Shown here: positions 34,101 to 56,075 of the stretch, in pieces
Numbering within the stretch: position 1 is the stretch's first letter
How the letters are laid out: each line of letters opens with the position of its first letter
Source of the DNA: an uncultured Anaeroplasmataceae bacterium
Lineage (GTDB): Bacteria > Bacillota_I > Bacilli_A > Acholeplasmatales > Anaeroplasmataceae
Length of the DNA: 64,000 nucleotides
Direction of reading: 5' to 3'
Assembly (NCBI GenBank): GCA_949840955.1
Contig: CATKXV010000003.1
Coordinates: 1-64,000, forward strand
Position numbers and translations under genes: made by a program
The notes under the pieces: generated by a model
Seen by the model: the letters and a program-made list of their open reading frames with translations, nothing else
What the model was told of the DNA's origin: nothing
Database searches by the model: none

Positions 34101-34394
34101 TATTTCATTTGAAGATATGTATCTCTATTTTTATTTAATTTACTATTGGGTACAAGTCTTTGTAGATATATATTTTTGTCTACCTATAAATAAACCAATA
34201 AAGAAAACATTTTTCTAGGTATATCTACCCTTCTTGTTAGTTCTAGTCTTTTAAGTTGGTCTGCCTAACTCTTTGACGTAGTTGCCAAAAGTACATTATA
34301 AATTTTCAACAAGAGTTTAAATGGCATAAAAATCACAAAATCAATTAACAAATTAACCCTATAAAATTGAAATTTTCCCTATGTCTAAGCCCCT

Positions 34395-34436
34395 ACGTAA
34401 ACGTAAGGATTAAGACAAGTACTCACTTATATTGAC
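34395..34436 (-). repeat. Possible degenerate rlmCD-end copy (E)
   Basis: On the plus strand TAAGGAT followed by TACTC spaced as in copy B at 35295. Similarity is shorter and the reading frame is not kept, so this is the weakest of the proposed attachment-site copies. The surrounding 34101-34537 holds no gene that I can recognise. Confidence 0.3.
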
Positions 34437-34537
34437 TAATTTCTATAAATTCTTTAATATACTTTTACAAATTAAGTTTAAATATAGTGTCTCAAATAAA
34501 CTAAATTCGCCACAAATTTTCAATCGAATTAGATACA

Positions 34538-34760
34538 TTAATTTAGTTTAATCCAACATTTCCCCTTTAAAAACACCTTAATTGATTCTAGATCTGTATC
34601 TTCGTAATAATTTATAAGATGTTTTTTATATTCTCTTATATGCTCTACAGGTATTACTACTATACCTAATCCATTTCTTATTAAATAATGATTGCTTATA
34701 GATAGAATCGACTAGATTTCTTCTTGCGATTGCTACACATAATTCAAATTTATTTTCGTA
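34538..34760 (-). pseudogene. Fic-family protein remnant
   Basis: Two pieces of a Fic protein in different frames. The upper part reads FELCVAIARRNLVDSIYKQS, like the N-terminal region of gut Firmicutes Fic proteins. The lower part reads LIRNGLGIVVIPVEHIREYK and then LINYYEDTDLESIKVFLKGK, like the C terminus. The whole HPFxDGNGR catalytic core between them is gone and a stop (34712-34714) separates the frames. This is a deletion derivative. Confidence 0.55.
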
Positions 34761-34791
34761 CTATAAAAAACTAACTTACTTCAACCACCAT

Positions 34792-35250
34792 TTATTTAAG
34801 GTATTCACCAAGAATCCTGAAAGCTTCTTTTTTATCAACAAGTGCAATAAAACCTATTATTGCTTCAAATGAAGTTGCATAGTCCTTCTTATTCATTTCC
34901 TGAAGATCAGTATTTGTAGCAAATAGCTTTCCTTCAAGTAATTTTTTGCCAATACTATTTAAATGCTGATTTGTGACTATTTCCTTCTTATCAGTTAATT
35001 CCTTTCGAGTACTATTCTTTTTAAATTCTTTTAGCATTACAAAAGATCCACAAATCGAATCCCCTACAGTTGCTAAAGCTCTATGATCACCTATTTTATG
35101 CTCATTTACATCATTATATTCTTTTGCAAATTGAGACATCGTTAACGATTGTACAGCTAATCCCTCAAATACAGTTGGCACATTAATTGATAGTAACTTA
35201 TAAAAGTTCAAAGCCTTATTCTTTAATTCTTCAAAAGGAAAGATTGTCAT
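34792..35250 (-). CDS. Single-domain RNase III-fold protein (Mini-III-like, altered active site)
   Basis: A protein of about 152 aa. HRALATVGDSICGSFVMLKE aligns with the RNase III signature, with KEIVTNQHLNSIGKKL next and DYATSFEAIIGFIAL matching the second acidic motif. The GD aspartate and the FEA glutamate are kept. The glutamate of LEFLGD is Ala here (LATVGD) and the Asp of the second motif is Thr. There is no dsRNA-binding domain. It may bind or weakly cut dsRNA. ATG 35250 is chosen because GGTGA is 6 nt upstream. Confidence 0.6.
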   Translation of the reverse strand: MTIFPFEELKNKALNFYKLLSINVPTVFEGLAVQSLTMSQFAKEYNDVNEHKIGDHRALATVGDSICGSFVMLKEFKKNSTRKELTDKKEIVTNQHLNSIGKKLLEGKLFATNTDLQEMNKKDYATSFEAIIGFIALVDKKEAFRILGEYLK

Positions 35251-35294
35251 TCTATTCACCAACTTTTTAACTTGAAATTTATAATATATCTGTT

Positions 35295-35360
35295 TTATTT
35301 CGTTTCATCTCTTAAGGATAACTGGCATATACTCTCAACATATCCTACCTGCATTTGGAA
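35295..35360 (-). repeat. rlmCD 3'-end copy B (attachment-site relic)
   Basis: Minus-strand reading gives YVESICQLSLRDETK then stop. Ten residues (CQLSLRDETK) are identical to the intact rlmCD end at 54720-54750, and the DNA matches at most positions. It lies directly upstream of the RNase III-fold gene. Confidence 0.75.
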
Positions 35361-35459
35361 TAGAAATGCATACTAAAATAAGAAAGTTATCTACAAAAAA
35401 TAAAGGGTATTTGTTGCCCAATCCCCTTTAAATATCTTAGGAGGCAAATTATATACTAA

Positions 35460-36374
35460 TTATTTTTTTACCTTTCCTAAATTTTCTCTTAATTTTATAT
35501 ATGAATAGTCATATATCCAATAATCTCTATTATAACCATAGTTTTTTAATTCTTCTTTTCTTGCAGATGTATTACACCTAACTAAATCATCAATAATGAG
35601 GCGATTACCACTATTATCGCTGATATTAAAATTTGGTTCTTTAAATTCATTTTCATCAATTTGATAATTATAATCATATAAATTATCAATTATAGAGTAA
35701 GATGAAATGTAGTTGCGTTCCAAGAAAAAATATTTAAGATATGTATTTAACAACACACAATCATCTAAAATATTCTGAGTTTCCTCTCTAGTGTTAACAC
35801 CGAAGATAATAACCTCTATTTTAAAATCATTTGTTTGATACCAGGCATTATTAACTTGCTTAATACTGATTTCATAATCAGACAGCATTTCTCGTATAAA
35901 ATCTAATAAAGCAACATCCTTTACTCCATTTAATTTTATATGAATAGTACCAATCCAATATTTGTTTTCTTGGCATTCTTTAAAAAATGCTAAAGCATCA
36001 GAATGATCAAAAAAATTAATACTATCATCCTCTTCATCTTCTTCATCAGATGCCAGTTTAATTTCATAATGATTCTGAACCTTAACAATCTCAAAGTCCT
36101 TTTCATTTGCAATAAAGCATGGAAATTTATTTGCTTTCTCATCATTTGTTTTGATATGACAGCAAATTAAATTTGATTCGGAATTTTTTCCGCCTTGTGT
36201 TTGAGGAAGAATATGATCAAGATTCCATCCATATTTACTATTTCTGTTTCCATAAGAGCCTTTATCCATTTCTCTTCCAGCAAAATCTTTAACCTTGGTT
36301 GCTTTGCCATAACGCTTATTCCAAAGCATCATTGCAGTTTCACGATTAATATTCATAATTGCATTTGTTTTCAT
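35460..36374 (-). CDS. HNH endonuclease family protein
   Basis: A 304-aa protein. The N-terminal 90 residues carry the HNH core: WNLDHILPQTQGGKNSESNL with the DH pair, the N of ESNL, and CHIKTNDEKANKFP as third element. The GNRNSKYGW segment before it replaces the usual CxxC knuckle. The remaining 200 residues are unassigned, acidic then mixed, perhaps a specificity domain. It is alone between copies B and C of the rlmCD end, with a structured 5' leader. Restriction or defence nuclease is likely; the target is unknown. Confidence 0.75.
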   Translation of the reverse strand: MKTNAIMNINRETAMMLWNKRYGKATKVKDFAGREMDKGSYGNRNSKYGWNLDHILPQTQGGKNSESNLICCHIKTNDEKANKFPCFIANEKDFEIVKVQNHYEIKLASDEEDEEDDSINFFDHSDALAFFKECQENKYWIGTIHIKLNGVKDVALLDFIREMLSDYEISIKQVNNAWYQTNDFKIEVIIFGVNTREETQNILDDCVLLNTYLKYFFLERNYISSYSIIDNLYDYNYQIDENEFKEPNFNISDNSGNRLIIDDLVRCNTSARKEELKNYGYNRDYWIYDYSYIKLRENLGKVKK

Positions 36375-36441
36375 AAATTATTTACCTAAATAATTTATAT
36401 AATAAACCTCCTATATTATTCTGTAGTTCATATAAATGCAT

Positions 36442-36537
36442 TGATTAATCGCTAGGGCAACCTAGTACTGAAGCCTCAAAGGGCAATCCTCATACAGTAT
36501 TTACAGAAGATTCATTAATCACCTATATTTCTATAGG
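36442..36537 (-). ncRNA. Structured leader upstream of HNH gene (putative)
   Basis: Hairpin CCTATA-GAAA-TATAGG on the minus strand (36522-36537) is followed at once by an 8-bp closing stem TGATTAAT/ATTAATCA (36514-36521 with 36442-36449). That stem encloses two small hairpins with related GGxUUGCCC/GGUUGCCC sequences, one a perfect CTAGG/CCTAG stem. An AGGAGG lies about 35 nt after it, before the HNH start. I do not recognise a known RNA class. The rest of 36375-36771 is AT-rich with the terminator and copy C. Confidence 0.35.
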
Positions 36538-36655
36538 GGGGTAGATTTATTGAACCATATATATTTTAACATTTATTTCATAAAATAGCAAGAAAAGTTC
36601 TATACTTATTTATTCTATAAATAATAATATTATACTTTACACTTATACAAATATA

Positions 36656-36692
36656 AAAAGACTAACCCATTTGAATGAATTAGTCTAATTTG
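36656..36692 (-). terminator. Terminator after copy C
   Basis: AGACTAA/TTAGTCT stem with T-rich tail on the minus strand, just past the stop of rlmCD-end copy C. The two other well-defined copies (A, D) also have a terminator at this place. Confidence 0.7.
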
Positions 36693-36701
36693 TAAGTAGA
36701 G

Positions 36702-36761
36702 TTATTTCGTTTCAGTCCTCAAGACAAGGGAGCAAATGCTCTCAACGAGATACTGAAATAC
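36702..36761 (-). repeat. rlmCD 3'-end copy C
   Basis: Minus-strand reading gives FQYLVESICSLVLRTETK then stop. Compare copy B (YVESICQLSLRDETK) and the intact end (TESVCQLSLRDETK). It sits 10 nt beyond the stop of the helical protein at 36772. Confidence 0.7.
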
Positions 36762-36771
36762 CCACAGTAAA

Positions 36772-38151
36772 TCATATCTTGTTTGCTTTATCAAATAACC
36801 ATAAAGCTATTTGAACTTGCAAATACAATTTCCATTCGTTTGTATAATAATTAAATTTAAAACAATTTTGAAATGCTGGTTCTAAAATTTTCAATTGAAG
36901 TCTTGGCCATTCATAATAATGTATTTTATATTTTTGGTCTAACTCTCTAGTGACTTCCATCAAGGACTCTATATCCATTTTCTGCTTAATTCCATCGTCC
37001 AAAATACTAAACATTTTCTCCATCTTGTTAGTATTAATTTTAGTCTTAGCATCAATAAATTGGCATTTATTATCTTTCTCTACTTCCATAGAATGGGCTG
37101 GATAAAGGAGACCAATTTTTTCTAGTTGATAATGATATCCTGATGGACTTTGTAAATCTGAAAATAATTCTAAATTAATTTCATCATCCTCAAAAATTAA
37201 ATCTTGTAATCGCTGATGAATCTCTTTAATTTCTTCTTTCACTGCATTTTGATAATCTTCTAAATGAGCTTGTAAATATGGTTCCTCATATTTTGTTTTA
37301 AAAATGGCTATCCATTCTTTGACAACATAATATTTATCATCGCCACATCTTTCCATTACTGCTTTTTGCAGTTCAAATAAATAATCAATATAATCCACAA
37401 ATTCTTCAGGAGTCTTTATATACTTGCTTCTTAAATTTTCTATTTTTTCTTTAAAATATCTTTCTGCAGCAAGCCTTATTTGTTTAAGAAAACTATATCT
37501 CTTTTCAATGTAATGAAAAATCTCATAAGTTTTTAAGTAAATAGTTTTAGTATAAGTACTTAAAATTTTCTCATCATTATCTTCATATTTATAAACTCTA
37601 GCATAGAAATCAGCACCATTGCTTTGCTTGTCAAATAATAAAGGATTCCCTTTACCTAAAAAACCGACATAAGGACACCATTCTGGATTGGATCCTTGAT
37701 ATATCCCATGTGAATTAGAATTTAGAGGATGAACAGAACATAAAGATCTAATATACTTAAAATACTCTTCATCGTTTCCATCTCCTGACTCTCCTGAATT
37801 GTGGAATGATGATACATCATTTTTTGTTTCATATTTAACATTAAATATTTTTCCTATTTGGGTAATACAATCTATAAGAGTTTGTCCATGAGTCAATAAA
37901 TTGCAAAGTTCAAAAATTCCTTCTTTTGTTTGTTCAATATTTAAAGAATTGCAATACTGAACTAAATCATCTATACGATCTAATGCCGCACAAATGCATA
38001 GGTATGAATCAGTCACAATCTGTTGTGTTGTTTTATCTGTTTTCTTTTTCGGCATTATAGTATTATGGCTTATTTTCAAAGTGAAATTGATATATTTATT
38101 TATTATTTTTCTTAACTTATCGTTTAAATCTTTATTCAAGTTTATTTTCAT
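36772..38151 (-). CDS. Helical protein with HEPN-like R-x5-H motif
   Basis: A protein of about 459 aa, nearly all helix with charged and aromatic residues. EYFKYIRSLCSVHPLNSNSH carries R-x5-H, followed by EWCPYVGF, a pattern I associate with large HEPN-type helical proteins of Firmicutes. No other catalytic motif is seen. The ATG at 38151 has AAAGGTG 6 nt upstream and overlaps the stop of the upstream gene (TAATG), so the two are a coupled pair. Function unknown; RNase-type toxin or defence effector is inference from the motif and the island. Confidence 0.6.
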   Translation of the reverse strand: MKINLNKDLNDKLRKIINKYINFTLKISHNTIMPKKKTDKTTQQIVTDSYLCICAALDRIDDLVQYCNSLNIEQTKEGIFELCNLLTHGQTLIDCITQIGKIFNVKYETKNDVSSFHNSGESGDGNDEEYFKYIRSLCSVHPLNSNSHGIYQGSNPEWCPYVGFLGKGNPLLFDKQSNGADFYARVYKYEDNDEKILSTYTKTIYLKTYEIFHYIEKRYSFLKQIRLAAERYFKEKIENLRSKYIKTPEEFVDYIDYLFELQKAVMERCGDDKYYVVKEWIAIFKTKYEEPYLQAHLEDYQNAVKEEIKEIHQRLQDLIFEDDEINLELFSDLQSPSGYHYQLEKIGLLYPAHSMEVEKDNKCQFIDAKTKINTNKMEKMFSILDDGIKQKMDIESLMEVTRELDQKYKIHYYEWPRLQLKILEPAFQNCFKFNYYTNEWKLYLQVQIALWLFDKANKI

Positions 38152-39116
38152 TATTTGCACCTTTCATTTACTTTTTGCTTTTCTTCGATAACTTGGTTAG
38201 TGCCACTATTGACTTGGTGCAATAAGTTTTCTAACCATTCATTTATTTCCTTATAAAGTTCATACTGGCATTGCTTATAATCTTTTTCTAAGACTGGTAA
38301 ATTCTTATTTATAAATTTTTTAAATACATCAAAAATTTTGTTCTTATTTTTCTGGATTTTCGATTCATCTCCGTGTTCAACATCATGATCCGTATATAAT
38401 CTTAATTGTTTTATATCATAAAGAGCTGGGTATTTATCAAAAGGAATATATTTTTCACTTCGATGTTTATTTCCACCAAAGCCCTCATAAAAAAGCATAT
38501 AACAGGAATTAATAATTGTCAAAAAATTTTCTTTTGTATTAGCAATCATCCCTACAATATTTCCCACATTTACATAATCATTTGAGGTTTGTTTAATTAT
38601 TTCTGAATCAATGAACTTAATCTTAGATAATTTGTCTGTAATAGAAAGTGACAGTTTATTAATTTTAACTGGGAGTGCTTTTTCAAATGCCTCATCAACA
38701 TCTATCTCTTTTGTTCTAACAATATAACCTGTGTCTCTTGCAATTACTCCATATAGATTAAGTCTTAAATAAACATCTATTTCATAAGATTTTCTATAAC
38801 CAGCAAGAGATAATATGGTTTGACTAATTATATCATTGACATAATATAACCACTGTATTTTAATTGGATTAGTTTCAATAGACAAATTAATAGATTCTAT
38901 TTGTTTATTTATTTTTTCTATTAAAGGCTTCAATGCATTTTCCATAATGTAAACTGAAGGAATGTTAAAAGAATTTAAATAATAAGCAAATTGATTTATA
39001 TATCCCCATGTCGGAATATTAGGAAGTTGATATTGCTTTAAAGTGTTAGAAAAATTCTCTAATGCAGTTATATATGGTATAACACCATTGTGTTTTGATA
39101 AAATGTCATTACTCAT
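38151..39116 (-). CDS. Helical protein with R-x4-H motif, partner of downstream gene
   Basis: A 321-aa protein of mostly helix. Near residue 240 it reads YDIKQLRLYTDHDVEHG, an R-x4-H motif with an acidic residue before the His, as in HEPN RNases. It ends with a long lysine-rich helix and EWLENLLHQ. It starts after a terminator that closes the dGTPase transcript, so it has its own promoter, and is coupled to the 459-aa gene by a one-base overlap. No named family assigned. Confidence 0.55.
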   Translation of the reverse strand: MSNDILSKHNGVIPYITALENFSNTLKQYQLPNIPTWGYINQFAYYLNSFNIPSVYIMENALKPLIEKINKQIESINLSIETNPIKIQWLYYVNDIISQTILSLAGYRKSYEIDVYLRLNLYGVIARDTGYIVRTKEIDVDEAFEKALPVKINKLSLSITDKLSKIKFIDSEIIKQTSNDYVNVGNIVGMIANTKENFLTIINSCYMLFYEGFGGNKHRSEKYIPFDKYPALYDIKQLRLYTDHDVEHGDESKIQKNKNKIFDVFKKFINKNLPVLEKDYKQCQYELYKEINEWLENLLHQVNSGTNQVIEEKQKVNERCK

Positions 39117-39162
39117 TTCTATATTCCTCCTTTTTCTTCATTTTATCATACCACAAAAACAG

Positions 39163-39190
39163 AAAAAACCGAAGTGAATTTCGGCTTTTT
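39163..39190 (-). terminator. Terminator downstream of dGTPase gene
   Basis: CCGAA/TTCGG with a 6-nt loop; A run on one side and T run on the other, functional on the minus strand. Confidence 0.7.
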
Positions 39191-39274
39191 AATACATATT
39201 ACAATTTTTTATAATTCTTTTATCACTCAATAATGTGACAAAGTATAGCTATTTTCACAAATGATAAATAGTAA

Positions 39275-39847
39275 TTAAATAGAATGCTTTATATTGTAAT
39301 CAAAATACTTATATCCATCAAACTTATTAATAGTTCTTTCAACATAAGTATCTGTCATGCGGGCAATACCTTCCAAGATTATTTGCTTGATAATAGATTT
39401 GAGTGCTGGATCCATGTTGCCAGACTGATATTCTTCGTTAATTTTATCCATTGTTATTTCTCCAAGCATGCTACTACCTGATTCCTTAACTCTATTAATG
39501 ATTAAACGTTTACTATTACTATCTATCCTTCTAATATCTTCATTATAAATATAATAAAGAAGTTCAATATTCTTTTGACCTTCAATATTAGACATAGTTA
39601 TCACTTGATCGTTAATCATAAAACGATTATGTCTCTTAAAAATATTAATTGCGTTATCCAAAATATTAGGAAATGAAATAATCGGTTTATACTTTTTATA
39701 TCTATAATGAGGATGAAAAATTTTGTACTCCTGAGTTTCATAGTTTTGCCCAGAATTTGTTTTTTTGTATTTCACAAACATTGTGTCAAAAGAAATCTCT
39801 TTATTTTTCACCAAATCAGTTACATATGTAATTAAATCCTCAATCAA
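39275..39847 (-). CDS. C-terminal part of frameshifted dGTPase
   Basis: A reading frame of 190 aa. KPIISFPNILDNAINIFKRH and GIARMTDTYVERTINKF match the C-terminal helical part of dGTP triphosphohydrolases. The only start is a TTG overlapping the stop of the preceding frame. Upstream in this frame the sequence KTSEELIEDL joins smoothly to the end of the first part. The break is at a run of six A residues on the coding strand (39859-39864), where seven would restore one protein of about 590 aa. It may be dead, phase variable, or rescued by slippage. Confidence 0.6.
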   Translation of the reverse strand: MIEDLITYVTDLVKNKEISFDTMFVKYKKTNSGQNYETQEYKIFHPHYRYKKYKPIISFPNILDNAINIFKRHNRFMINDQVITMSNIEGQKNIELLYYIYNEDIRRIDSNSKRLIINRVKESGSSMLGEITMDKINEEYQSGNMDPALKSIIKQIILEGIARMTDTYVERTINKFDGYKYFDYNIKHSI

Positions 39848-41046
39848 TTCTTCAGAAGTTTTTTGGAAATCCTATATTGATATACAATCCGATTCGAAAA
39901 ATTAGAAGAGTCTGGAGAACTTGAGCATTCCAAAATCTTCCTTATATTTTTAACAATGACATCACAATAATTTGCGGTTGAACCTAAAAATTGTGACGTC
40001 TTTTCTCCATCATAATTACAAATATCATAGTTACTAATTTGAAGGTTAATCTTACTTTTGGTTTTATATTTTATATTTATTCTTTTGTTTATTTTTCTTT
40101 TGACATCTCTATTGTGACCTCTACTTGTGTTTTCTTTTGTGGTCAAAGTAATATCCTTTTTAATTTCGTTTAAACACTTCTTGTATCCTTCTAAATCTTC
40201 ACACAATTCTTCAAAAGCATTAGTATATTTTGCAGCATAATTAGATTTGTAATATAGTCTAATTGCATCATCAAAATCTGAAATGCGTTGAGAAATTTCA
40301 TCAGCAATGGCAACTATTTGCCCTTCTAATGATAAGGCAGCAGGGTAATTCAAGTAATTATCAATAAACGAATTTAATTTCATTAATTCAGTATTTTCAC
40401 AATACAACCCTTTGTACTTTACTACAAAATCGTTAATGAACTTTTGAAAATCCTCATTTTTAAGTAAAGGATGATTGCTAAAATAGACATATAGATTATA
40501 AGGATCATTTTTAACATCTGTTTTAGCTTGTTTAGGGTAAGCGTTTGTGTGTTTAATTACGCCATCAAATAATCTCCAATCATAATTGGGATAATTGAAA
40601 CCAAATCTTTCAACATTTTCATTCACATTGTTGCTTTCATTTGTTTTTATAATTCTAGGGTCTAAAAGAATTTTTGCAGAATGTATATTATGCTTAAAAT
40701 ATAAGCAATCATTTATTAGAAGATCATTGATTTTTTCCTCACCAATATGCCCAAATGGTGTATGTCCAATATCATGGGCATAAGCAATAGCTTTTACTAA
40801 ATTTGAATCCAAATAAATCTCTTTTTTTTCTAAAACAGGAGCTAATTTTTCTACAATTCTTTCTGCTATTGAAGCTACTTCCATTGTATGTGTTAACCTT
40901 GTCCTAAAATGTTCACTAATCCTTGTATTAAACATTTGAGTTTTATCTTGTAGCCTCCTTATTTCTTTAGAAAAAGAAATTTCAGTTAACATTTTTAAAT
41001 TATCTGGTTTTACGCCCTCTAAACATATTTCATTTTTTTGTTCCAT
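39844..41046 (-). CDS. dGTPase-like HD-domain triphosphohydrolase, N-terminal part
   Basis: A frame of 400 aa. RTRLTHTMEVASIAERI gives the first His (H53), AYAHDIGHTPFGHIGE the HD pair (H91, D92) plus H95 and H100, and AIADEISQRISDFDDA the last Asp. This is the bacterial dGTPase pattern, which cleaves dGTP to deoxyguanosine and triphosphate. Such enzymes can protect against phage by depleting nucleotides. The frame ends early at an A6 run, the rest being in the next frame. GGGGAG and a TATAAT box (41064-41069) precede it. Confidence 0.75.
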   Translation of the reverse strand: MEQKNEICLEGVKPDNLKMLTEISFSKEIRRLQDKTQMFNTRISEHFRTRLTHTMEVASIAERIVEKLAPVLEKKEIYLDSNLVKAIAYAHDIGHTPFGHIGEEKINDLLINDCLYFKHNIHSAKILLDPRIIKTNESNNVNENVERFGFNYPNYDWRLFDGVIKHTNAYPKQAKTDVKNDPYNLYVYFSNHPLLKNEDFQKFINDFVVKYKGLYCENTELMKLNSFIDNYLNYPAALSLEGQIVAIADEISQRISDFDDAIRLYYKSNYAAKYTNAFEELCEDLEGYKKCLNEIKKDITLTTKENTSRGHNRDVKRKINKRINIKYKTKSKINLQISNYDICNYDGEKTSQFLGSTANYCDVIVKNIRKILECSSSPDSSNFSNRIVYQYRISKKLLKN

Positions 41047-41140
41047 ATTATTATCTCCCCTCTATTATAAGAAATTTTTATTAAAATATAGTCCGGTTTC
41101 TAAAGAATAAAAATCTTTTTTTTACTCATACTAAAATTGG

Positions 41141-41196
41141 GTGGTTCCCTAAATCGAACCAGGCATAATTGCAATATATTATGCCTTTTATTTTTT
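41141..41196 (+). ncRNA. Small RNA A1 of array
   Basis: Starts about 7 nt after TAAAAT (41132-41137). Begins with the GGTTC/GAACC hairpin (loop CCTAAATC), then the terminator AGGCATAAT/ATTATGCCT with TTTTATTTTTT. Predicted length about 55 nt, with no room for a protein. The -35 region is poor. Confidence 0.5.
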
Positions 41197-41218
41197 AATT
41201 GTTTTTTTTATTTTTTTA

Positions 41219-41247
41219 TTGACAATGCCTATATATTTTGTTAAAAT
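41219..41247 (+). promoter_or_regulatory. Consensus promoter of small RNA B1
   Basis: TTGACA, exactly 17 nt, TAAAAT. An identical copy is at 41432-41460 for B2. Confidence 0.85.
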
Positions 41248-41253
41248 AATTAT

Positions 41254-41316
41254 GCGTTGTTCCCTAAATCGAACTAAAAATTATTCGAATCAATTTATAT
41301 GATTCGTATTTTTTTT
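41254..41316 (+). ncRNA. Small RNA B1 of array
   Basis: Predicted start 7 nt after the -10 box. It carries the core GTTCCCTAAATCGAAC (41259-41274), then the terminator CGAATCA/TGATTCG followed by eight T residues. About 63 nt. Confidence 0.65.
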
Positions 41317-41353
41317 ATTCTAAATTTGATTATTACTGCATATATAATATCGT

Positions 41354-41409
41354 GTGGTTCCCTAAATCGAACCATGCATAATTGCAATATATTATGTCTT
41401 TTACTTTTT
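41354..41409 (+). ncRNA. Small RNA A2 of array
   Basis: TATAAT at 41343-41348, then the core hairpin and a terminator stem with two substitutions relative to A1 that weaken it. About 55 nt. Confidence 0.55.
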
Positions 41410-41431
41410 AATTGTTTTTTTTATTTTTTTA

Positions 41432-41460
41432 TTGACAATGCCTATATATTTTGTTAAAAT
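41432..41460 (+). promoter_or_regulatory. Consensus promoter of small RNA B2
   Basis: TTGACA, 17 nt, TAAAAT, 213 bp after the B1 promoter and identical to it. Confidence 0.85.
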
Positions 41461-41466
41461 AATTAT

Positions 41467-41529
41467 GCGTTGTTCCCTAAATCGAACTAAAAATTATTCG
41501 AATCAATTTATATGATTCGTATTTTTTTT
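41467..41529 (+). ncRNA. Small RNA B2 of array
   Basis: Same sequence as B1 over its whole predicted length, 213 bp downstream. Confidence 0.65.
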
Positions 41530-41566
41530 ATTCTAAATTTGATTATTACTGCATATATAATATCGT

Positions 41567-48825: not shown

Positions 48826-48844
48826 ATTATCTACGGCCTCCTTT

Positions 48845-48998
48845 AAAAAGACCACCTATTAAAATAATAGATGAACTTTTTTAAAGGAAAATATCAGTTA
48901 TCTCAGGTAAAACATTGTAAATCAGCGTAAAAAATGCTAAAATTAGACCATAAATTATTAAATTTGACCCCGAATTATTTTAATAGGTGGTCTTTTTT
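48845..48998. repeat. 24-bp perfect inverted repeat enclosing 106 bp with a promoter
   Basis: Arm 48845-48868 is the exact reverse complement of 48975-48998. The arms contain GACCACCTATTAAAATAAT. The 106-bp interior carries an outward-facing plus-strand promoter. Position: directly between the restriction operon and a tyrosine recombinase gene. This is the layout of an invertible promoter. Confidence 0.85.
48915..48943 (+). promoter_or_regulatory. Promoter inside the inverted repeat, facing away from restriction genes
   Basis: TTGTAA, 17 nt, TAAAAT with an extended -10 TG one base before. In this orientation it points towards the recombinase's 3' end. A minus-strand alternative (TTTAGC, 16 nt, TACAAT) overlaps it but is weaker. 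Confidence 0.6.
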
Positions 48999-49002
48999 AT
49001 TG

Positions 49003-49031
49003 TTGAAAAATGCCATCTGTTTTATAGATGG
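49003..49031 (-). terminator. Terminator of the recombinase gene
   Basis: GCCATCT/AGATGGC stem, followed on the minus strand by ATTTTTC. It can also work on the plus strand. Confidence 0.65.
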
Positions 49032-49039
49032 CAAGTTTT

Positions 49040-49953
49040 TCATAAGATTTGAACTATTTTATTCATTTCTTGTATCTTATATTCTAGGAGGGAATGAGCA
49101 TATCTATTGAGAGTAATTGCTACATTGGTATGTCCTAGAATCTCAGATAATGTATTGATATCCATACCTAGTTCTAAGGCTCTAGTAGCAAAGGTGTGTC
49201 TAAGTGCATGGAAGTTATAGTGTTTGATTTTACATTTGTTTAATACTGATTCAAATGTCCTTTGATAACTTCTTGTTTCAACCATGGTTTTTGTTCTAGT
49301 ATGAATGATATATTCACATGATGAGTTTTTCTTATAAATAGATAATAGGTTGATGATCTTATCTGGCAAGGGAATAACTCTATTTGATTTCTTAGTTTTT
49401 AGAGATTCTACTATAAAAACTTTCTTTTTATCTTCTCTAAGTGTATAGGAAGTTTTTTTAATATAGAGATATTTTTTATTAAAGTCTATATCATCCCAAG
49501 TTAATGCTAGTAGTTCTCCTAGTCTTATCCCAGTATAGAGACAAATAATCAACCCTAGATAATTATGCTTACTGCTCTTCAAGCAATATTCCTCTACTAT
49601 CTTTTATTCTTCTCTAGTTAATGCATTGACTTCCTTTTCTTTGGATGCTGGGAGTTTGATAGTTGTAGTTGGATTTTTAGAAATATACTCTAAGTTTAAA
49701 GCTAGATTAAAGGCTTGTTTTAATATAGATACAAAACTATAAACTGTATTAGAAGCTAAAGGTTTATGTGTGATAAGATTACCTCTTTTTAGCTTTTCAA
49801 TTACATAATCCTGTAATATAGTAGGAGTTATATCTTGAATATCATATTCTCCTAGTATTGGATTAATATGTAAAGATATAATATCCTGATACTTATTAAA
49901 ACTCCTTATTTTTAGAGTGAGTTTGGCATACTTATTTAGCCATATTTTTTCAT
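49040..49953 (-). pseudogene. Tyrosine recombinase/integrase, broken by a frameshift and a stop
   Basis: Catalytic domain: YTGIRLGELLALTW (first Arg), FHALRHTFATRALE (H-x-x-R), ILGHTNVAITLNRYAH (His and Tyr). The N-terminal SAM-like domain (VYSFVSILKQAFNLALNLEY) is in frame, but TAA at 49604-49606 cuts the protein between LTREE and KIVEEYC. At the start, ATG 49951-49953 with AGGAG upstream runs into a stop because the A run at 49945-49950 has six rather than seven residues. About 305 aa if repaired, without an arm-binding domain. Inactive unless the 180-aa C-terminal piece is expressed. Confidence 0.85.
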
Positions 49954-50062
49954 TTGATACTCCTTTTTATTGATTTATTGTATCACAATTTGATACCCTC
50001 ACCCTACTGAACAATTTCTTATATAAACGTACCTATTAATAATTATAAAAGTTTAACCAAAT

Positions 50063-50100
50063 AAAAAAGAGTCGTTAATAAACTTTCATCTACTAACGAC
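50063..50100 (-). terminator. Terminator after copy D
   Basis: GTCGTTA/TAACGAC stem, then TCTTTTTT on the minus strand. Stem and loop resemble the terminator at 54605-54649 downstream of the intact rlmCD. The rest of 49970-50459 is AT-rich, without a gene. Confidence 0.7.
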
Positions 50101-50136
50101 AACATATACTAACTATTTATTTTTTACTGGAGCACT

Positions 50137-50184
50137 TTAAATGTGGGTTAATTGAACAACACTCTCGACATATTCTACCCAATT
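50137..50184 (-). repeat. rlmCD 3'-end copy D
   Basis: Minus-strand reading gives WVEYVESVVQLTHI then stop, a typical rRNA uracil methyltransferase end. The DNA at 50161-50179 matches copy B nearly base for base over the part that encodes YVES. Confidence 0.65.
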
Positions 50185-50459
50185 TTACTAATATATTTCC
50201 TAAAAATAAAACTTATCTTTTTGAATTTTAAACCAATTATATTTTTTAAATTTTATGCAAATGTACAAGCAAGCCTTTATAATTATAGTGTATATTTTTT
50301 CATAATTTGGCATTTAACGATTATGTTTTCCCTCTCTCAACACCTATACTAATTAATTAAAATATAAATTCACCATTTTTTAATTCTTCATTTACTTTCT
50401 AATTGTTGGTCCCTTTAATAATATAAAAAGTAACCACAAAGTTTTTACATTAATGCAGA

Positions 50460-50951
50460 TTAGTAGATATTAAGATTTCCAATTTTTTGCAATAGAAAAT
50501 CTGCAAATGAAATTAGAGACAAAGCATTTTCTTCTGTATCAGCCCACTCATCCTCATGAGCCCTTGGATTTCTTATACCAGTCATGCATCCTGCAAAAAT
50601 TTGCATAAAGCCTTTTTGTTCATCTAACTCTGATTTTGTATTTAAATCATTCAGTTTGATTATTGGGTTCTTTTCAGAAAAAACATAGGTCATAAGATCC
50701 GCTCCATCTCTACTTTTTTCATTTGAAATTTTTTTGATAGTATTGTTTACACATTTGTAAGCCATTTCTACAGCTTGTGCATAATGGCCATCTAAAAACA
50801 ATTTTCGTGAAGCATTCCTTAATTTTTCATTTTTAATTCTTATGTCATAAAGTTCATCAAAAGTCACTATTATCTTAGGGATTGGCTTCTTATAATGGCG
50901 TAACTCTGAATCTAGTTTTTTGATTATTAAAAACAATTCTTTGTAATCCAT
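50460..50951 (-). CDS. Hypoth_Ymh (TIGR02391) family protein
   Basis: 163 aa. The family pattern is clear: LFLDGHYAQAVEMAYKCVNN, then SRDGADLMTYVFSEKNPIIK, and GFMQIFAGCMTGIRNPRAHE near the end. The RNPRAH segment resembles the R-N/x-x-H motif of HEPN-related helical proteins. Biochemical role unknown; members are frequent in defence-rich islands. It is 2 bp after the DUF5343 gene, so the two are cotranslated. Confidence 0.82.
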   Translation of the reverse strand: MDYKELFLIIKKLDSELRHYKKPIPKIIVTFDELYDIRIKNEKLRNASRKLFLDGHYAQAVEMAYKCVNNTIKKISNEKSRDGADLMTYVFSEKNPIIKLNDLNTKSELDEQKGFMQIFAGCMTGIRNPRAHEDEWADTEENALSLISFADFLLQKIGNLNIY

Positions 50952-50953
50952 AA

Positions 50954-51631
50954 TTAGTCCTTATATAAATACTTTGACATACTTTCAAAAATGTGATCTA
51001 TCTGTTCAGCATCTGCATCTGGAGAAATATGAATTTGTAAATCAATATGAATTGACATATTCTTTTTATTTTTTTCAATAGTAGGTGATGTTAATTCTCC
51101 TGCATTTTCTTGAGATGTAGCTTGATTATGTTGAGTAATCGATCCGTTGCTCTCTTGTTTTTTGGGACTTGCTTTTTTACTTTTTTTATTTTGAGTACCT
51201 GTCTCACCAATTTTTCCAGATTTAAGTAAAGTGAAAAATGCTGCCAACTTCCTAGTTTGTGCAGAACCCGCTTTAGTTTTTGACATAAAATAATTTGCTA
51301 CTTTTATTTTATCTACTTCTTGATCTGGAAAAAGATCAAGCAATTCAGATGGATAAACATCTTTTAGAATTTTACTACAAACCCCGTTGTATTTATCGTC
51401 TAATCTAAAATCATATAATAAATCAGTCGGCTTGCCTTCTCCATCAATAAAATTGATTTGCCTAAGTGGAACCAAAATATTATTTCGAGCTGAACTTTTA
51501 CTTTGCATACCTAAAAGTGTTTGAATAAAGACATCCGTTATTTCTGCAGGAATAGTTTTTTTAAATTGATTTCTTAAAGTCCACCACGCCTTTTCAGAGA
51601 TACAAGGATAAGAAAATTTTTCTTCACTCAT
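50954..51631 (-). CDS. DUF5343 family protein
   Basis: About 225 aa. The first 145 residues match DUF5343: FSYPCISEKAWWTLRNQFKK, IPAEITDVFIQTLLGMQSKS, then IDGEGKPTDLLYDFRLDDKY and a late YPSELLDLFP. The C-terminal 80 residues are Lys/Ser/Gln-rich then a short amphipathic strand and helix. Function unknown. ATG 51631 with AAAGGAG 8 nt before it replaces an upstream TTG-like start. Middle gene of a three-gene operon. Confidence 0.8.
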   Translation of the reverse strand: MSEEKFSYPCISEKAWWTLRNQFKKTIPAEITDVFIQTLLGMQSKSSARNNILVPLRQINFIDGEGKPTDLLYDFRLDDKYNGVCSKILKDVYPSELLDLFPDQEVDKIKVANYFMSKTKAGSAQTRKLAAFFTLLKSGKIGETGTQNKKSKKASPKKQESNGSITQHNQATSQENAGELTSPTIEKNKKNMSIHIDLQIHISPDADAEQIDHIFESMSKYLYKD

Positions 51632-51724
51632 AATTAAAACTCCTTTCATTTTTTTGAATTATAATAATTATAATATTTCCATCAAATTCTTGTTAAATAA
51701 TAGCATCATAAATGATAAATCAAG

Positions 51725-52486
51725 CTATTCAAAGTCTGAATCCTTCAATTTGAACTTACGCTTCAGTAAAATATCAAACAAGTCTTTTAATGCAATCAAA
51801 TCATCTTTAGTAGCTTCTCTTGGAATAGTAATTTTTGCTAATCTTCCACTTTCAGTTTCATATTCCTGCTCAATAAATAAATTTAGAACATTGTCCAAAT
51901 TTTTTTTTGTAGTTGGCATATCATTAATAGAAGGAATTTCTATATTACTATTAGTCTCCCCCTTAACATCTTCTTGAATGCTTGAATCTTCCATATCAAC
52001 CACTTTGCATTCAAGAGAATATATTAAAATGCCATTCTTAACTATTCCAACAAATTCAATAGTATCAATAAAAGCTTTTGCGGCAACATCCTTAGAAGTT
52101 TTAATAATATCATAGTCATTAAATAAGAGATTAGCCAAAACATTTGTATCCAATAACTGCTTTCCATTAAACCTATCGATTAGTTCTTTATATAATTGCG
52201 GATTATACACAACTTCATTTAGTATTTTGGCTTTAGAATCAACACTAACAGGATAAAGATAACTCTTAGCAATCTTTGTAAGTTCAATTTTCTGACCATC
52301 TGCTTCAATTAGTCCAAACTGTTTTGAAGATGACACCTTTGCTTTAAAAGAGTTGGCAGAGGTTGTTACACTATATAATTCTGCCATTTGTTTATAACCA
52401 ACAGGACCATTAAATTTTTCAATTTTTTCGATAAAATCAATGCACTCAGCAAGAGATGCTCCAGGGTATTTTCTACTTTTTTGCAT
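51725..52486 (-). CDS. Winged-helix DUF5343-like protein, first gene of trio
   Basis: 253 aa. MQKSRKYPGASLAECIDFIE opens a winged-helix region (GYKQMAELYSVTTSANSFKA, LIEADGQKIELTKIAKSYLY) distantly like the DUF5343 protein downstream. A second similar segment may follow (LLFNDYDIIKTSKDVAAKAF). Acidic linker, then a C-terminal regulatory-looking sheet and helices. AAAGGAG and an ideal promoter precede it. With the two next genes it forms a compact operon that could be a defence module; the activity is not known. Confidence 0.65.
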   Translation of the reverse strand: MQKSRKYPGASLAECIDFIEKIEKFNGPVGYKQMAELYSVTTSANSFKAKVSSSKQFGLIEADGQKIELTKIAKSYLYPVSVDSKAKILNEVVYNPQLYKELIDRFNGKQLLDTNVLANLLFNDYDIIKTSKDVAAKAFIDTIEFVGIVKNGILIYSLECKVVDMEDSSIQEDVKGETNSNIEIPSINDMPTTKKNLDNVLNLFIEQEYETESGRLAKITIPREATKDDLIALKDLFDILLKRKFKLKDSDFE

Positions 52487-52510
52487 ATCAACAACTCCTT
52501 TCTTGATTTC

Positions 52511-52538
52511 ATTATATCACATTTTCTATTTTATTCAA
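52511..52538 (-). promoter_or_regulatory. Promoter of wHTH-DUF5343-Ymh operon
   Basis: TTGAAT, 16 nt, TATAAT on the minus strand, about 25 nt before the ATG. Confidence 0.7.
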
Positions 52539-52579
52539 GTGTTTTTTTGTTTTTTTGTTTTTGATTTTAGTTTTTTTGT

Positions 52580-53243
52580 TTATAGTTCTTGCTTTTTGTT
52601 TGTGCTGCAGAAAACAGAAACTGCAATTGCCGTTTTTGACAGGCTGCTAAAGCCCAAATCAAAATGAGGTTGGATTTTACATTCTTTAATAAATTCATAG
52701 CTGTGGCTAACAAACCACATACTATATTGGCCATCCTATTTTGGTGTTAAATCTAAACCAAAATCAACCTTATGTATAGAGGTGATACTAAACTGTCTGG
52801 CTGGATCTAGCTCATAACCATATTGAGGCATCATCTAAGCCATCCGTAAAGCCTTAAAAGCTATACTTCCAAAGTTTTTTTGATTAACATAACCTATAAT
52901 AGGTGTTAATTTGATGGCTTCATCATCAAATAGTAATAAAGTGTTACTACAATGAATCACCATTATATGCTTGCAGATATCAATGAAGGATTATTAGTTC
53001 CTATAAGTAATCTATAAAAAGATAAATTTTAAATGCCATATACTTTTGATGCAAGCAATTTATATTTAGATATTCTTAATATTCTTTCCTTCATCTCAAT
53101 TAAAAAACTTTGCTTGATTCGGCCCCCAAACATTTTTTTCAATGCTTGGCTTTCTTCTCTTTTTAAATTTTCAGCGAAAGACTGCATTTCTTTCATTTGT
53201 TGCTAAAAATCTAATGGTATTGTTGGCAAATCATTTCTCATAC
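52580..53243 (-). pseudogene. Decayed coding region, two or more gene remnants
   Basis: No intact frame. Nearest the RNase III gene, RNDLPTIPLDF-stop-QQMKEMQSFAENLKREESQA resembles a type I specificity-subunit C terminus, but weakly. Further on, PQYGYELDPARQFSITSIHK then VDFGLDLTPK-stop-DGQYSMWFVSHSYEF and HFDLGFSSLSKTAIAV form a broken second frame, not recognised. Confidence 0.45.
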
Positions 53244-53244
53244 G

Positions 53245-54336
53245 CTAGTCCCCCCCCTCAATCTCTAGTACTTGTTTGAGAACACACCACGCAGCCAGGC
53301 GTTTAGCTCCTCGCTTTGAATAATCTCTTCCCCACCAACATATTCTCTTTTGATAATTTATTGAGCAATAACATTTCCATGCAGGATAACCTTGCTCATC
53401 ATAACTTTCTTCAAATCTATAATTAGGCATATCAAAGTATCCTTTTTGTGCAAGTTCCTGTAATTGATTAACTGCCAATTTTTCACAAGGATTATCTATT
53501 TCATCCTTAATCGTAAAAAGCAAGTTATTTGATTTTAAATATTCATAAGCAAGTTTGGCAGCCAACATTCTTGCTTCACTTTTAGAATTTGCATGGCCTA
53601 CAAATGGTTCTCCATTATCAATAAGTAATTCACAAGTAATATTACCAGAACCTAATTCCATTCGGTTTCTTTTATTAGCAATGCTTAAATTATTAATCAA
53701 TCTCTCCCATATATAAAGATTATTTTCTATATACAGATATTTTGGAAGTGTTTTGTATTGTTTTTGCACCCACTGTTGAATTAAATCAACATAGTTATCT
53801 TGCTCATTAAAATCATTCTGCAAATAATGCTGTGAATTTAACATTATTTCAACAACAGTTTCTATTATTATTAAACTCCAACCACAATCTAAAGCAACAG
53901 CTCCAATAATTGCTTCAAACAAATCTTCTTTTACAGATGGCTCATCTTGAGCATTTTTATTGATATCTCCATTGCCCATAATAAGATATTGATTTAAACC
54001 TAGTATATCAATTCGATGTGCAAGCATCTTCTTTTCAACCAATTTCTTCTTTAGGTTGGTAAATTCACCCTCAGTATAATCTGTAATGAACTCATTTTCA
54101 TCCTCATAGGAATCGTATTCATCTTCATCTTCTGCATACCAACCATAATTATCCATAAGGATTTTCACTACTGCTAGATCTAGGGCTTTATCACCAATGA
54201 ATTCTAGTACTTCGTTGTTTTCTCCACCATTTTCTTCGGAATATGATTTTCTTACAAAGGCTTGTTGTAAAAGGTCCTTATTATGAAATTCATACCCAAT
54301 CACATTTTCAATTTCTTCTAAATCGTTTCTGTTCAT
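53245..54336 (-). CDS. RNase III with two dsRNA-binding-like domains, island-borne
   Basis: About 363 aa. The nuclease domain keeps the full signature NNEVLEFIGDKALDLAVV (both Glu and the Asp) and the second acidic site KEDLFEAIIGAVALD, so catalysis is expected. An acidic insertion (EDEDEYDSYEDENEF) lies between helices. Two dsRBD-like segments follow: NSKSEARMLAAKLAYEYL (about 260-280) and YSKRGAKRLAAWCVLKQVLE at the end. Housekeeping RNase III is about 230 aa with one dsRBD. ATG 54336 is chosen for AAGG upstream and the domain start. A run of eight G ends the gene. Confidence 0.82.
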   Translation of the reverse strand: MNRNDLEEIENVIGYEFHNKDLLQQAFVRKSYSEENGGENNEVLEFIGDKALDLAVVKILMDNYGWYAEDEDEYDSYEDENEFITDYTEGEFTNLKKKLVEKKMLAHRIDILGLNQYLIMGNGDINKNAQDEPSVKEDLFEAIIGAVALDCGWSLIIIETVVEIMLNSQHYLQNDFNEQDNYVDLIQQWVQKQYKTLPKYLYIENNLYIWERLINNLSIANKRNRMELGSGNITCELLIDNGEPFVGHANSKSEARMLAAKLAYEYLKSNNLLFTIKDEIDNPCEKLAVNQLQELAQKGYFDMPNYRFEESYDEQGYPAWKCYCSINYQKRICWWGRDYSKRGAKRLAAWCVLKQVLEIEGGD

Positions 54337-54604
54337 ATAATTAAACCTTCTCTTTCTATAATTTGAAGGCAAACAAAAAGTCTAACATAATTTACACTAC
54401 TCCCATTAGAAAATAGTTTTCTTTTATTGTTAGACCTAATTGATTAAATTATATTACATAAATCATTCTTATTTATTAAATCCCACTTGCATAAGCTAAA
54501 ATAAATATCTTCTATTTTATGTTGCATATTTAAACAATTAGTATTTTGTATGCCTCCTTATTTAGATAATATCAAAAATGAAAAATATTGTCAATAAATT
54601 TTAT

Positions 54605-54649
54605 AAAAAATGTCGCTAAATAGAAGTTTCATCTAATAGCGACATTTTT
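54605..54649 (-). terminator. Terminator downstream of rlmCD
   Basis: AAATGTCGCTA/TAGCGACATTT stem with T-rich tail on the minus strand, 55 nt after the rlmCD stop. 54373-54604 holds an inverted pair GTCTAACA/TGTTAGAC and a possible 27-aa frame, nothing firm. Confidence 0.75.
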
Positions 54650-54704
54650 ATATAATAAATATATCAATTACTTTTTTGAGTTTAATTATTATTCATAATA
54701 ATTA

Positions 54705-56075
54705 TCACTTAGGGATATATTTTGTCTCATCTCTCAATGATAACTGACATACACTTTCTGTTAAAGCGGTTTGAGGGAACATATCTAAGGGAGTTATAGA
54801 ATTAAACTGATAAATTTTACTTAGCTTTTCTAAATCCTTTGCTAAAGTTGCAGGATTACAAGAAACATATACCATTCTCCTTATTTTAGCATGAAGTAAA
54901 GCCTGAATAAAGGTATCCTCTAATCCTGTTCTAGGAGGATCAACTACTACAACATCAAAGGATTCTTCCTCTAACAATTTAGGTAAAAGCTGTGCTGCAT
55001 CCCCTTGATAAAATTTTGCATTTTTAATCTTATTTATCTCAGCATTTTCTTTTGCAGCAAGAACTGCATCCTTATTGTATTCAATACCAACTACCTCTTT
55101 AGCCATATGGGCTAAATATAAGCCAATGGCTCCTACACCACTATAGGCATCTAACACCCTTTCTTTAAAGGAAAGCTTGCAGGCCTTTAAAACAATATCC
55201 ATCATCTGCTTTGCTTGCTTCGTATTTAATTGAAAAAAGGTATTGGGATAAATGCGATACGAAATATTTCCTAATTTTTCTACAATGTAGGGATTCCCTT
55301 CTAAAAGCGTAGGCTCAGTACCAAAAAAGCCAATATCCTTTTTAGAATCATTCAAGGATTCATAAACCCCTACCACCCCATCAATTTGGATGACCTTTCT
55401 CGCAAGCTCCTTAATTTTATTGCTTTTCTCTCCTATGATAAGACAAACTAATGCTTCATTTTTTTCATTTACACGAGTAATTAAATATCTTAATATACCT
55501 CTACCATACTTAGCAATATATCCAGAAATTCCTAATTCCTCTGCATAGGTTAAAATCATAGTATTTATTTCATTGATTCTTTTCTTTTGCACAAGACAAG
55601 AATCAATGGGAACAATGGAATTGGAATTTGGCTTTAGCATACAAACATGAAGCTTTCCATCGACGTTTTTCACAGAAAGTTGACTACGATTTCTATAGTG
55701 AAATATATCTTCAGAGGGTACAGTTTTACGGATTTCAAAGGATTTAGGATTCAAACTTGTATATCTATTTATAGCCTCTATGATGGATTCTCTTTTGAAT
55801 TCAAGCATTTTCTCGTAGCTGATATGACTAACATTACAGCCACCACATTCATAATAATATGGACAGCTAGGAGAAATTCTATCCTTTATATAATGCTTGA
55901 TTTCTAAAGATTTTGCGAAGGCCATTTTTCCATTGGTTTTTGTAACCTCTACATTATGACCTTCCCCTGGAATGGCATTTTCAACAAATACAGCCATACG
56001 ATTATAAAAGCCAATCCCCTCCCCATTAATACCCAATCGTTTAATATCTAATATAAAATTATCCTTTTCTTTCAC
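54705..56075 (-). CDS. rlmCD: 23S rRNA (uracil-C5)-methyltransferase RlmCD/RumA type
   Basis: 456 aa. An N-terminal TRAM domain, then the iron-sulfur ligand set beginning CPYYYECGGC with a further Cys at DSCLVQKK. SAM fold: RVLDAYSGVGAIGLYLA, FDVVVVDPPRTG, YVSCNPATLAKDL with catalytic Cys. It makes m5U in 23S rRNA. The C terminus MFPQTALTESVCQLSLRDET carries KYIPK extra, consistent with an end replaced by insertion. Its 5' end overlaps the GH43 gene by 17 bp. Host gene of the island attachment site. Confidence 0.93.
   Translation of the reverse strand: MKEKDNFILDIKRLGINGEGIGFYNRMAVFVENAIPGEGHNVEVTKTNGKMAFAKSLEIKHYIKDRISPSCPYYYECGGCNVSHISYEKMLEFKRESIIEAINRYTSLNPKSFEIRKTVPSEDIFHYRNRSQLSVKNVDGKLHVCMLKPNSNSIVPIDSCLVQKKRINEINTMILTYAEELGISGYIAKYGRGILRYLITRVNEKNEALVCLIIGEKSNKIKELARKVIQIDGVVGVYESLNDSKKDIGFFGTEPTLLEGNPYIVEKLGNISYRIYPNTFFQLNTKQAKQMMDIVLKACKLSFKERVLDAYSGVGAIGLYLAHMAKEVVGIEYNKDAVLAAKENAEINKIKNAKFYQGDAAQLLPKLLEEESFDVVVVDPPRTGLEDTFIQALLHAKIRRMVYVSCNPATLAKDLEKLSKIYQFNSITPLDMFPQTALTESVCQLSLRDETKYIPK
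54708..54760 (-). repeat. rlmCD 3'-end copy A (inside the intact gene)
   Basis: The segment encoding TESVCQLSLRDETK matches copy B at 35295 in sequence and in the plus-strand run ATAACTG-CATA. It marks the rlmCD-side junction of the island. Confidence 0.7.

Follow-up and report, generated by a model that had tools for sequence, protein, structure and literature searches.

The 23S rRNA methyltransferase gene rlmCD lies on the reverse strand of the window, a stretch of 64,000 nucleotides (nt) of contig CATKXV010000003.1 (C3) from an uncultured Anaeroplasmataceae bacterium, whose 2.1-Mb genome (G000) is assembled in 34 contigs. Its product belongs to the rumA family, as it passes the TIGR00479 cut-off, and is 77-85% identical to those of genes in five metagenome-assembled genomes labelled Anaeroplasma, Anaeroplasmataceae or uncultured Mollicutes, so that the organism is taken to be a mollicute similar to Anaeroplasma. 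The gene is intact and ends in TESVCQLSLRDETKYIPK, as a first-pass annotation of this DNA had stated. Downstream of it lie some 20 kb of unrelated genes, followed by rubrerythrin and then adhE; by blastn to sister species, the conserved chromosome restarts at about 34077, ahead of rubrerythrin. This island, the displaced rlmCD-like gene ends that it contains and the way in which it may have been assembled are the subject of the present analysis, in which the window was compared with sister genomes of the genus, G001-G010 among them, and with a family set of 55 genomes.

Three isolated gene ends, named here after their last positions (50137, 36702 and 35295), occur in the island on the strand of rlmCD (Table 1). 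They start with a Glu codon, at 50166, 36743 and 35336, respectively, as does the live tail at 54758, and encode VEYVESVVQLTHI, LVESICSLVLRTETK and YVESICQLSLRDETK, each followed by a stop codon. Copy 50137 stops early, whereas its relatives in G001 and G010 continue as ...HIESASVKNK and ...NIESASAKNK. A mechanical repeat search placed 35295, 36702 and 54717 in one 45-nt family of 71-76% identity. Since the tails match live ends in sister species or paralogues, the three copies are, judging from their sequences, former rlmCD 3' ends. That such ends are instead random peptides or ordinary C-terminal motifs of the Val-Glu-Ser kind is a practically negligible possibility. Queried with the other known tails, copies 36702, 50137 and 35295 reached local scores of 165, 107 and 65, against maxima of 40, 35 and 32 in 60 dinucleotide shuffles of each; no shuffle reached the score of any copy, and the E-values to live ends (1e-35 for 36702 against G003, 2e-20 for 50137 against G001) likewise refute chance. 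Chance does fit a further candidate near 34400, already called doubtful in the first-pass annotation, which scored 33 (null mean 30.5) and was equalled or bettered by 14 of 60 shuffles.

The terminator scan placed terminators at 50100-50071, after copy 50137, and at 36686-36659, after copy 36702, and returned nothing after 35295; the terminator behind the intact gene, at about 54644-54605, is clear by eye and absent from the scan list. The initial description put terminators behind three ends lettered A, C and D, whose match to the present copies is uncertain. Across the family, a scan of 437,122 bases downstream of rlmCD-family genes for the displaced-end pattern gave 14 matches on the same strand against one on the opposite strand; three of the 14 are the window copies, one (in G004) is an intact paralogue end, and the remainder are pattern matches alone.

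Table 1. Features of the rlmCD island, from the target gene toward rubrerythrin
Feature	Positions	Strand	Evidence or content
rlmCD/rumA-type 23S rRNA (uracil-5-)methyltransferase gene, target	54705..56075	(-)	TIGR00479 rumA 363.6 bits, cut-off 183.55; PF05958
Live tail (gene end from Glu codon, stop, downstream arm)	54664..54758	(-)	87.5%/88 nt to contig C14 paralogue tail
Segment E1 (4.6 kb), between live tail and copy 50137	50167..54757	(-)	Pfam, PADLOC
Displaced rlmCD tail (copy 50137) and terminator	50072..50166	(-)	82%/95 nt to live G001 rlmCD end; 85%/78 nt to G010
Segment E2 (13.4 kb)	36744..50165	(-)	Ends are copies 50137 and 36702
Left arm of E2	36744..36813	(-)	Window 36813-36739 85%/75 nt to G005
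Displaced rlmCD tail (copy 36702) and terminator	36629..36743	(-)	93.5%/92 nt to live G003 rlmCD end; 95.7%/92 nt to live G004 second-paralogue end
Structured RNA upstream of E3 HNH gene	36428-36553	(-)	RF03112 (Staphylococcus-1 RNA) 90.5 bits, cut-off 87.7
Segment E3 (1.4 kb)	35337..36742	(-)	HNH-domain gene 35460-36374 (HNH_4 27.3 bits, cut-off 22)
Displaced rlmCD tail (copy 35295), oldest detectable	35295..35336	(-)	89.7%/39 nt to live G000 second-paralogue end; 88.1%/42 nt to displaced G009 tail
Unbounded remnant E4	34078..35294	(-)	RNase III-like ORF 34792-35262; Fic-like scrap

The boundary of the displaced tails is sharp. In 21 pairs of a gene and a displaced end, mean codon identity ranges between 0.00 and 0.49 in the 15 codons that precede Glu (0.30-0.44 for the last three) and reaches 0.94 at the Glu codon itself; these pairs were picked by tail similarity, which raises the right side of the comparison and leaves the position of the step unaffected. 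Among 21 pairs of paralogues, identity steps at the same codon from 0.41 to 0.89, less cleanly because the paralogue bodies are homologous. The codon before Glu is GTT or GTC in all ten displaced ends listed and ACN in six of nine first-paralogue genes. The arm up to that codon would therefore derive from the insert, the gene retaining its own, which would put the crossover at the Glu codon or immediately next to it.

Three rlmCD-family paralogues occur in the genus, and comparison of 27 of their ends (351 pairs; the G002 end, where the contig ends inside the gene, was excluded) suggests that the paralogue group is a much poorer guide to tails than to bodies. Similarity of 70% or more is seen between the 90-nt bodies in 86 of 109 same-paralogue pairs and in 3 of 242 different-paralogue pairs, and between the tails in 20 and 23, respectively. 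Tails of different paralogues reach identities of 0.93 (G003 first and G004 second), 0.87 (G006 first and second) and 0.84 (G000 first and second), in pairs whose bodies are 0.60-0.68 alike, and another tail type is common to second and third paralogues. The C14 paralogue that carries a tail like the live tail of the window encodes a protein just 31% identical to RlmCD as a whole. Tails common to paralogues within one genome, as in G000 and G006, could have arisen by homologous recombination or gene conversion between paralogues, with the displaced copies as partial duplications. This explanation is nevertheless very improbable: mean identity steps at a single codon, the displaced copies hold only the part from the Glu codon on, and the intervening cargo differs from segment to segment. 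As the main process, gene conversion is also at odds with the near-identical cassette described below, which is followed by different displaced tails in two genera.

Related genomes vary at the site. The adhE gene is present in all 11 genus genomes searched. It lies 129 nt from the rlmCD stop in G008, 1.6 kb from it in G004, and about 21 and 32 kb from it in the window and in G003, respectively; contigs break inside this stretch in G001, G005, G006, G009 and G010, and no rlmCD was found in G002 and G007 at the search threshold used. When the 20-kb island was compared with the fetched parts of sister islands (blastn, E <= 1e-5), the matches between rlmCD and rubrerythrin were confined to the four ends, the arm beside 36702 and one weak 159-nt patch (42010-42168, 70% to G006). 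The gene ends themselves are 80-96% similar, with the match of two copies continuing through the terminator. Variation at the site and similarity above chance at its ends, on both of which the first-pass annotation had staked its reading, are thus observed. Displaced ends were also found in sister islands, with at least three in G009 (two of them following rlmCD, the third on the side of adhE), two in G003 (one degraded) and one each in G006 and G005. A side finding is a possible fusion near the tail-swap place in G039 (contig C46, L046), where an rlmCD body match runs up to residue 432 and the frame continues to an open reading frame (ORF) of about 700 aa.

It might be argued that the composite island arrived as one block with three internal rlmCD-like tails, no serial insertion having occurred here; this species is represented by one genome only, and composite accretions have been described that can transfer as a unit (PMC5704250). 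Block arrival is quite unlikely, however, as two of the internal tails match live chromosomal ends of sisters, which is expected of former ends, and the E2-type left arm abuts a different displaced tail (VESVVSLSK) in G005.

A segment bounded exactly at the same codon was found in two other genomes. G029 and G020, which belong to different genera and whose RlmCD proteins are 49% identical, share an insert at the rlmCD end with 98.1% identity across 2227 ungapped nt. This match extends 8 nt from the first base of the displaced Glu codon (GTCGAA); the displaced tails beyond it, VESVTTLTLKK and VETVCALSLSTDRTFFKDKM, are unrelated. This 2.2-kb cassette has three ORFs, one of which encodes a DUF3990 protein, and no recombinase was recognised in it by Pfam scans of the first 120 residues of each ORF or by tblastn with large serine recombinases (LSRs). 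The same cassette begins behind the rlmCD of G037 and runs up to the contig end, and partial related sequences occur in G041, G082 and G086 with no tie to rlmCD. A group II intron (RF02001, RF01998) lies directly behind the G020 rlmCD terminator (L065 1606-1900) and is absent from the Rfam scan of the G029 locus, which fits the larger insert of G020 (2912 vs 2292 nt).

The tails with their common sharp boundary, the occurrence of such tails as live ends on paralogues and in sister species, and the near-identical cassette of two genera, all apparent in the DNA itself, make repeated site-specific insertion at this gene end, as first proposed, well supported, and the island is very probably an accretion array produced by serial insertion at the rlmCD 3' end. 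We infer that a circular element or cassette would recombine with the last rlmCD codons, by a crossover in or next to the Glu codon, about 10-17 residues from the end. The body of the gene would be retained, the newcomer would supply an in-frame C-terminus, a stop codon and usually a terminator, and the old tail would come to lie at the distal end of the insert, past the newcomer's left arm. Each insertion would rebuild the site and thereby make it reusable. In the window, the remnant beyond 35295 would have arrived first, followed by E3 (HNH), E2 (restriction and dGTPase) and E1 (RNase III and DUF5343).

Candidates for the catalyst were found in related islands. LSRs are encoded in those of G009 (649 aa) and G003 (661 aa), which are 53% identical to each other, and a third (651 aa, 50-57% identity) is encoded on contig C19 of G000, 1.5 kb from a displaced paralogue-type tail. 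PF00239, PF07508 and PF13408 were all found in the C19 and G009 proteins, and the G003 protein was recognised by PF07508 and homology. A Rep_trans protein is encoded beside the LSR in the G009 element and a Rep homologue on C19; Pfam-type scans of the window segments recognised no relaxase or rolling-circle Rep. LSRs of the C19 type occur in 6 of the 55 family genomes (E <= 1e-100). The C19 protein shows a below-cut-off resemblance to CcrB and CcrC of the staphylococcal cassette chromosome (SCC), with 218.4 and 192.7 bits against cut-offs of 900. A Streptococcus suis prophage with a name ending in _rum encodes an LSR 38% identical over 80% of the query, but it is outranked by unannotated fecal phage records (41-44%), Javan prophages (40%) and Enterococcus plasmids (53%), so that its name is only a lead; a search of the viral-contig set with the LSR returned no relative.

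The arms of the elements offer a clue to how segments without a recombinase might move. A 107-residue LSR piece in G006, 92% identical to the G009 LSR, lies about 190 nt behind rlmCD, and the left arm ACTAGGATAAGGG(A/G)(C/T)TTACAGTT is common, with few changes, to the G006 segment and the first two G009 segments. The second G009 segment has no LSR despite sharing this arm with the LSR-bearing first one, which is the best hint of a possible action in trans. An LSR may thus act on recombinase-less segments in trans, or may have acted before their recombinase decayed. Tails were detected by BLAST at three of seven loci with an LSR of the C19 clade, 2 of 12 with other LSRs and none of 15 with tyrosine integrases; the pattern alone adds one convincing C19-clade locus (L120) and also rings, without rlmCD-like context, at two more other-LSR loci and four tyrosine-integrase loci. 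The link between LSRs and tails is suggestive. A second, distant LSR type (603-aa open frame, about 30% identical) occurs on contig C38 of G003 (L118 9013 and 12523), accompanied by Rep, a UvrD-like gene and two displaced third-paralogue-type tails.

Insertion by a tyrosine integrase, like the one that has left a remnant at 49040-49950, is an unlikely alternative on balance. The remnant adjoins the 50137 tail in the same orientation, and streptococcal integrative and mobilizable elements (IMEs) in accretion have tyrosine integrases, though some decayed ones have serine integrases (PMC5357655). Relatives of the window enzyme (81-89%) at four other sites in the genus, however, have no BLAST match to an rlmCD tail from the Glu codon, the 15 tyrosine-integrase loci gave none either, and PF00589 was not found in the rlmCD-adhE stretches (fetched, partly incomplete) of nine other genus genomes, whereas those of G003 and G009 carry LSRs. 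At locus L146 of G006 (2947-2990), only 44 nt of terminator are shared, that of the G008 third paralogue (98%/44 nt), directly behind a tyrosine integrase and without a coding tail. Given its position beside a restriction system and an inverted repeat of 24 nt, the window integrase is itself probably cargo.

Several observations count against serial insertion by an LSR. The oldest copy, 35295, is short and has no terminator, and the tails still cluster in part by paralogue (20/109 same-group against 23/242 different-group pairs at least 70% alike). The genomes compared are one per species and so include no two strains that differ by a single segment. Over its first 72 nt, which comprise tail and terminator, the two-genus cassette is only 89% alike in G020 and G029, against 98% for the rest, so that tails may also change separately from cargo. 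As to the enzyme, the tyrosine-integrase remnant lies about 120 nt beyond the 50137 tail, four of the seven C19-clade LSR loci have no tail by BLAST, and the LSR-tail link is partly circular, two of the three tail-bearing loci of this clade having been fetched for lying beside rlmCD. The island of the window yielded neither an LSR nor part of one; we therefore infer its building enzyme, which is likely to be an LSR like those of the two sister islands and C19.

The one live and three displaced ends divide the island into three bounded segments, 4.6, 13.4 and 1.4 kb long, and a remnant without a far boundary, so that the stacking described in the first-pass annotation holds for these and not for five segments. 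E1 contains an RNase III gene with a double-stranded RNA-binding domain (53245-54372), gene debris (about 52600-53200), a 253-aa ORF, and genes for a DUF5343 protein and a Ymh/HEPN-like protein that matches the Aga_HEPN and PD-Lambda-3_B models. E2 contains the tyrosine-integrase remnant, a type II methyltransferase gene (47878-48855), a IIG-type restriction enzyme gene (43857-47873), an array of hairpin repeats (41132-41625), a gene for a dGTPase-like protein that scores under the NCBIfam cut-offs (39844-41046) and ORFs at 36772-39847. The G006 island holds protein relatives of its restriction genes (30-37%) and of a small ORF at 41971 (42%), and this kind of cargo is thus not unique; in G003, PLD/helicase-like, Dam-like and TIR-like ORFs were noted by eye. 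The claim that cargo differs by segment is borne out by E1, E2 and E3; in E4 the RNase III-like ORF stays under the PF00636 cut-off (25.8 bits, cut-off 27), and the Fic-like scrap was identified by eye only. Overall, the predicted cargo looks like defence-island content.

Some further features of the island and its relatives deserve mention. The hairpin-repeat array comprises five units with the hairpin GGTTCGATTTAGGGAACC, spaced alternately by 115 and 98 nt (213-nt period), with terminator-like A/T stems; it lies directly upstream of the dGTPase gene and has no Rfam match at the gathering score. A perfect 24-nt inverted repeat (48845-48868/48974-48997, 105 nt apart), between the tyrosine-integrase remnant and the type II methylase gene, is possibly a DNA-inversion or mobile-element boundary. 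RF03112 occurs in 3 of the 55 family genomes (E <= 0.001). In G015 (L158) it lies at about 1501-1629, directly upstream of a 43%-identical HNH gene (1677-2651) and behind a RecA-like gene; in G030 it falls below the cut-off, with no HNH match in the 1.9-kb stretch examined. Together, this RNA and the HNH gene resemble a two-part unit. Element ends or their vicinity repeatedly hold RNase III-like genes, in E1 and E4 and in G009 (L032 14844-15323), and one lies beside the LSR of G033 (contig C32, L119 12495-13763). A repeat of at least 50 nt occurs at window positions 5-55, C14 1-51, C5 137177-137226 and C2 284138-284188, that is, at three contig ends, those of C14 and the window among them, and one inner place; it is possibly an insertion sequence that breaks the assembly. 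An end overlap between C14 and the LSR contig C19 was sought, and none was found.

Accretion and serine integrases at rumA are known already. In streptococci, rumA is an insertion site of integrative and conjugative elements (ICEs) and IMEs with a single serine integrase, whose attachment (att) site lies inside the integrase gene and whose insertion exchanges 3' parts with a change of frame (PMC4701971, PMC5357655); prophages have also been described between rlmCD and fosX in Listeria, as has accretion as a process (PMC4701971, PMC5357655, PMC5704250, PMC8386393). The elements considered here share with the rumA elements the rumA/RlmD/RlmCD target, an altered methyltransferase C-terminus and, in G009 and on C19, an LSR of the Resolvase-Recombinase-zinc-ribbon type. 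Their att site, by contrast, is not inside the integrase gene, since the G009 LSR ends at 9320 of L032 and the far-side tail lies at 11403 (about 2.1 kb), and the C19 LSR ORF ends about 1.5 kb from its far-side tail. The newcomer here supplies an in-frame replacement tail, and serial stacks are not described in the accessible parts of PMC4701971 and PMC5357655. Cis-mobilizable elements (CIMEs) and tandem accretion have been described as ICE/IME decay products (Pavlovic 2004; Bellanger 2011, cited in PMC5704250). Like CIMEs, the arrays include recombinase-less segments that keep both att sites and are probably stacked at one gene end by successive insertion; unlike decay products, segments of 1.4-4 kb here look intact, and one is common to two genera. 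E1, E3, the second G009 segment and the two-genus cassette have no recombinase and are flanked by two att sites of the same specificity at the target end.

SCC elements combine large serine recombinases (ccrAB/ccrC), insertion at the 3' end of the 23S rRNA methyltransferase gene rlmH, stacked composites and recombinase-less cassettes. The present islands resemble them in general plan, with LSRs in two sister islands and on C19. The target is rlmCD rather than rlmH, however, the C19 LSR scores far below the CcrB cut-off (218 vs 900), and the swapped tail is about 10-17 codons long and differs between elements. Integrons likewise take up successive small recombinase-less gene cassettes at one site; here, in contrast, the site is the end of a coding gene, which each insertion would rewrite. 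No integron integrase turned up beside the site, no search aimed at IntI or attC having been made. New relative to the published systems are the in-frame replacement tails, which pass from species to species and from paralogue to paralogue, and the short recombinase-less segments at this site; among the matches listed from the open-access literature, no paper reports such arrays in Anaeroplasma or at rlmCD.

A broader reading can be offered tentatively, with somewhat less than even confidence. Acholeplasmatales might possess an integron-like LSR cassette system, in which one- to four-gene recombinase-less cassettes (with genes such as HNH, AAA ATPase, DUF3990 or RNase III-like) would be captured in trans at the 3' ends of rlmCD-family genes, each bringing a working methyltransferase C-terminal piece as part of its attachment site. 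If true, the gene end would be both a landing site and a changeable part of the protein, traded between species, genera and paralogues.

The row of displaced tails would be a written record of insertions, from which the order of arrival of defence-type cargo could be read and checked against sister species. It also points to an rRNA-modifying enzyme whose last residues have repeatedly been replaced by mobile DNA and are common to paralogues, so that gene trees of the C-terminus and of the body would disagree. If an LSR moves recombinase-less cassettes in trans, cargo genes could be found mechanically between rlmCD-type tails. New tools for integration might also come from the LSRs and their sites.

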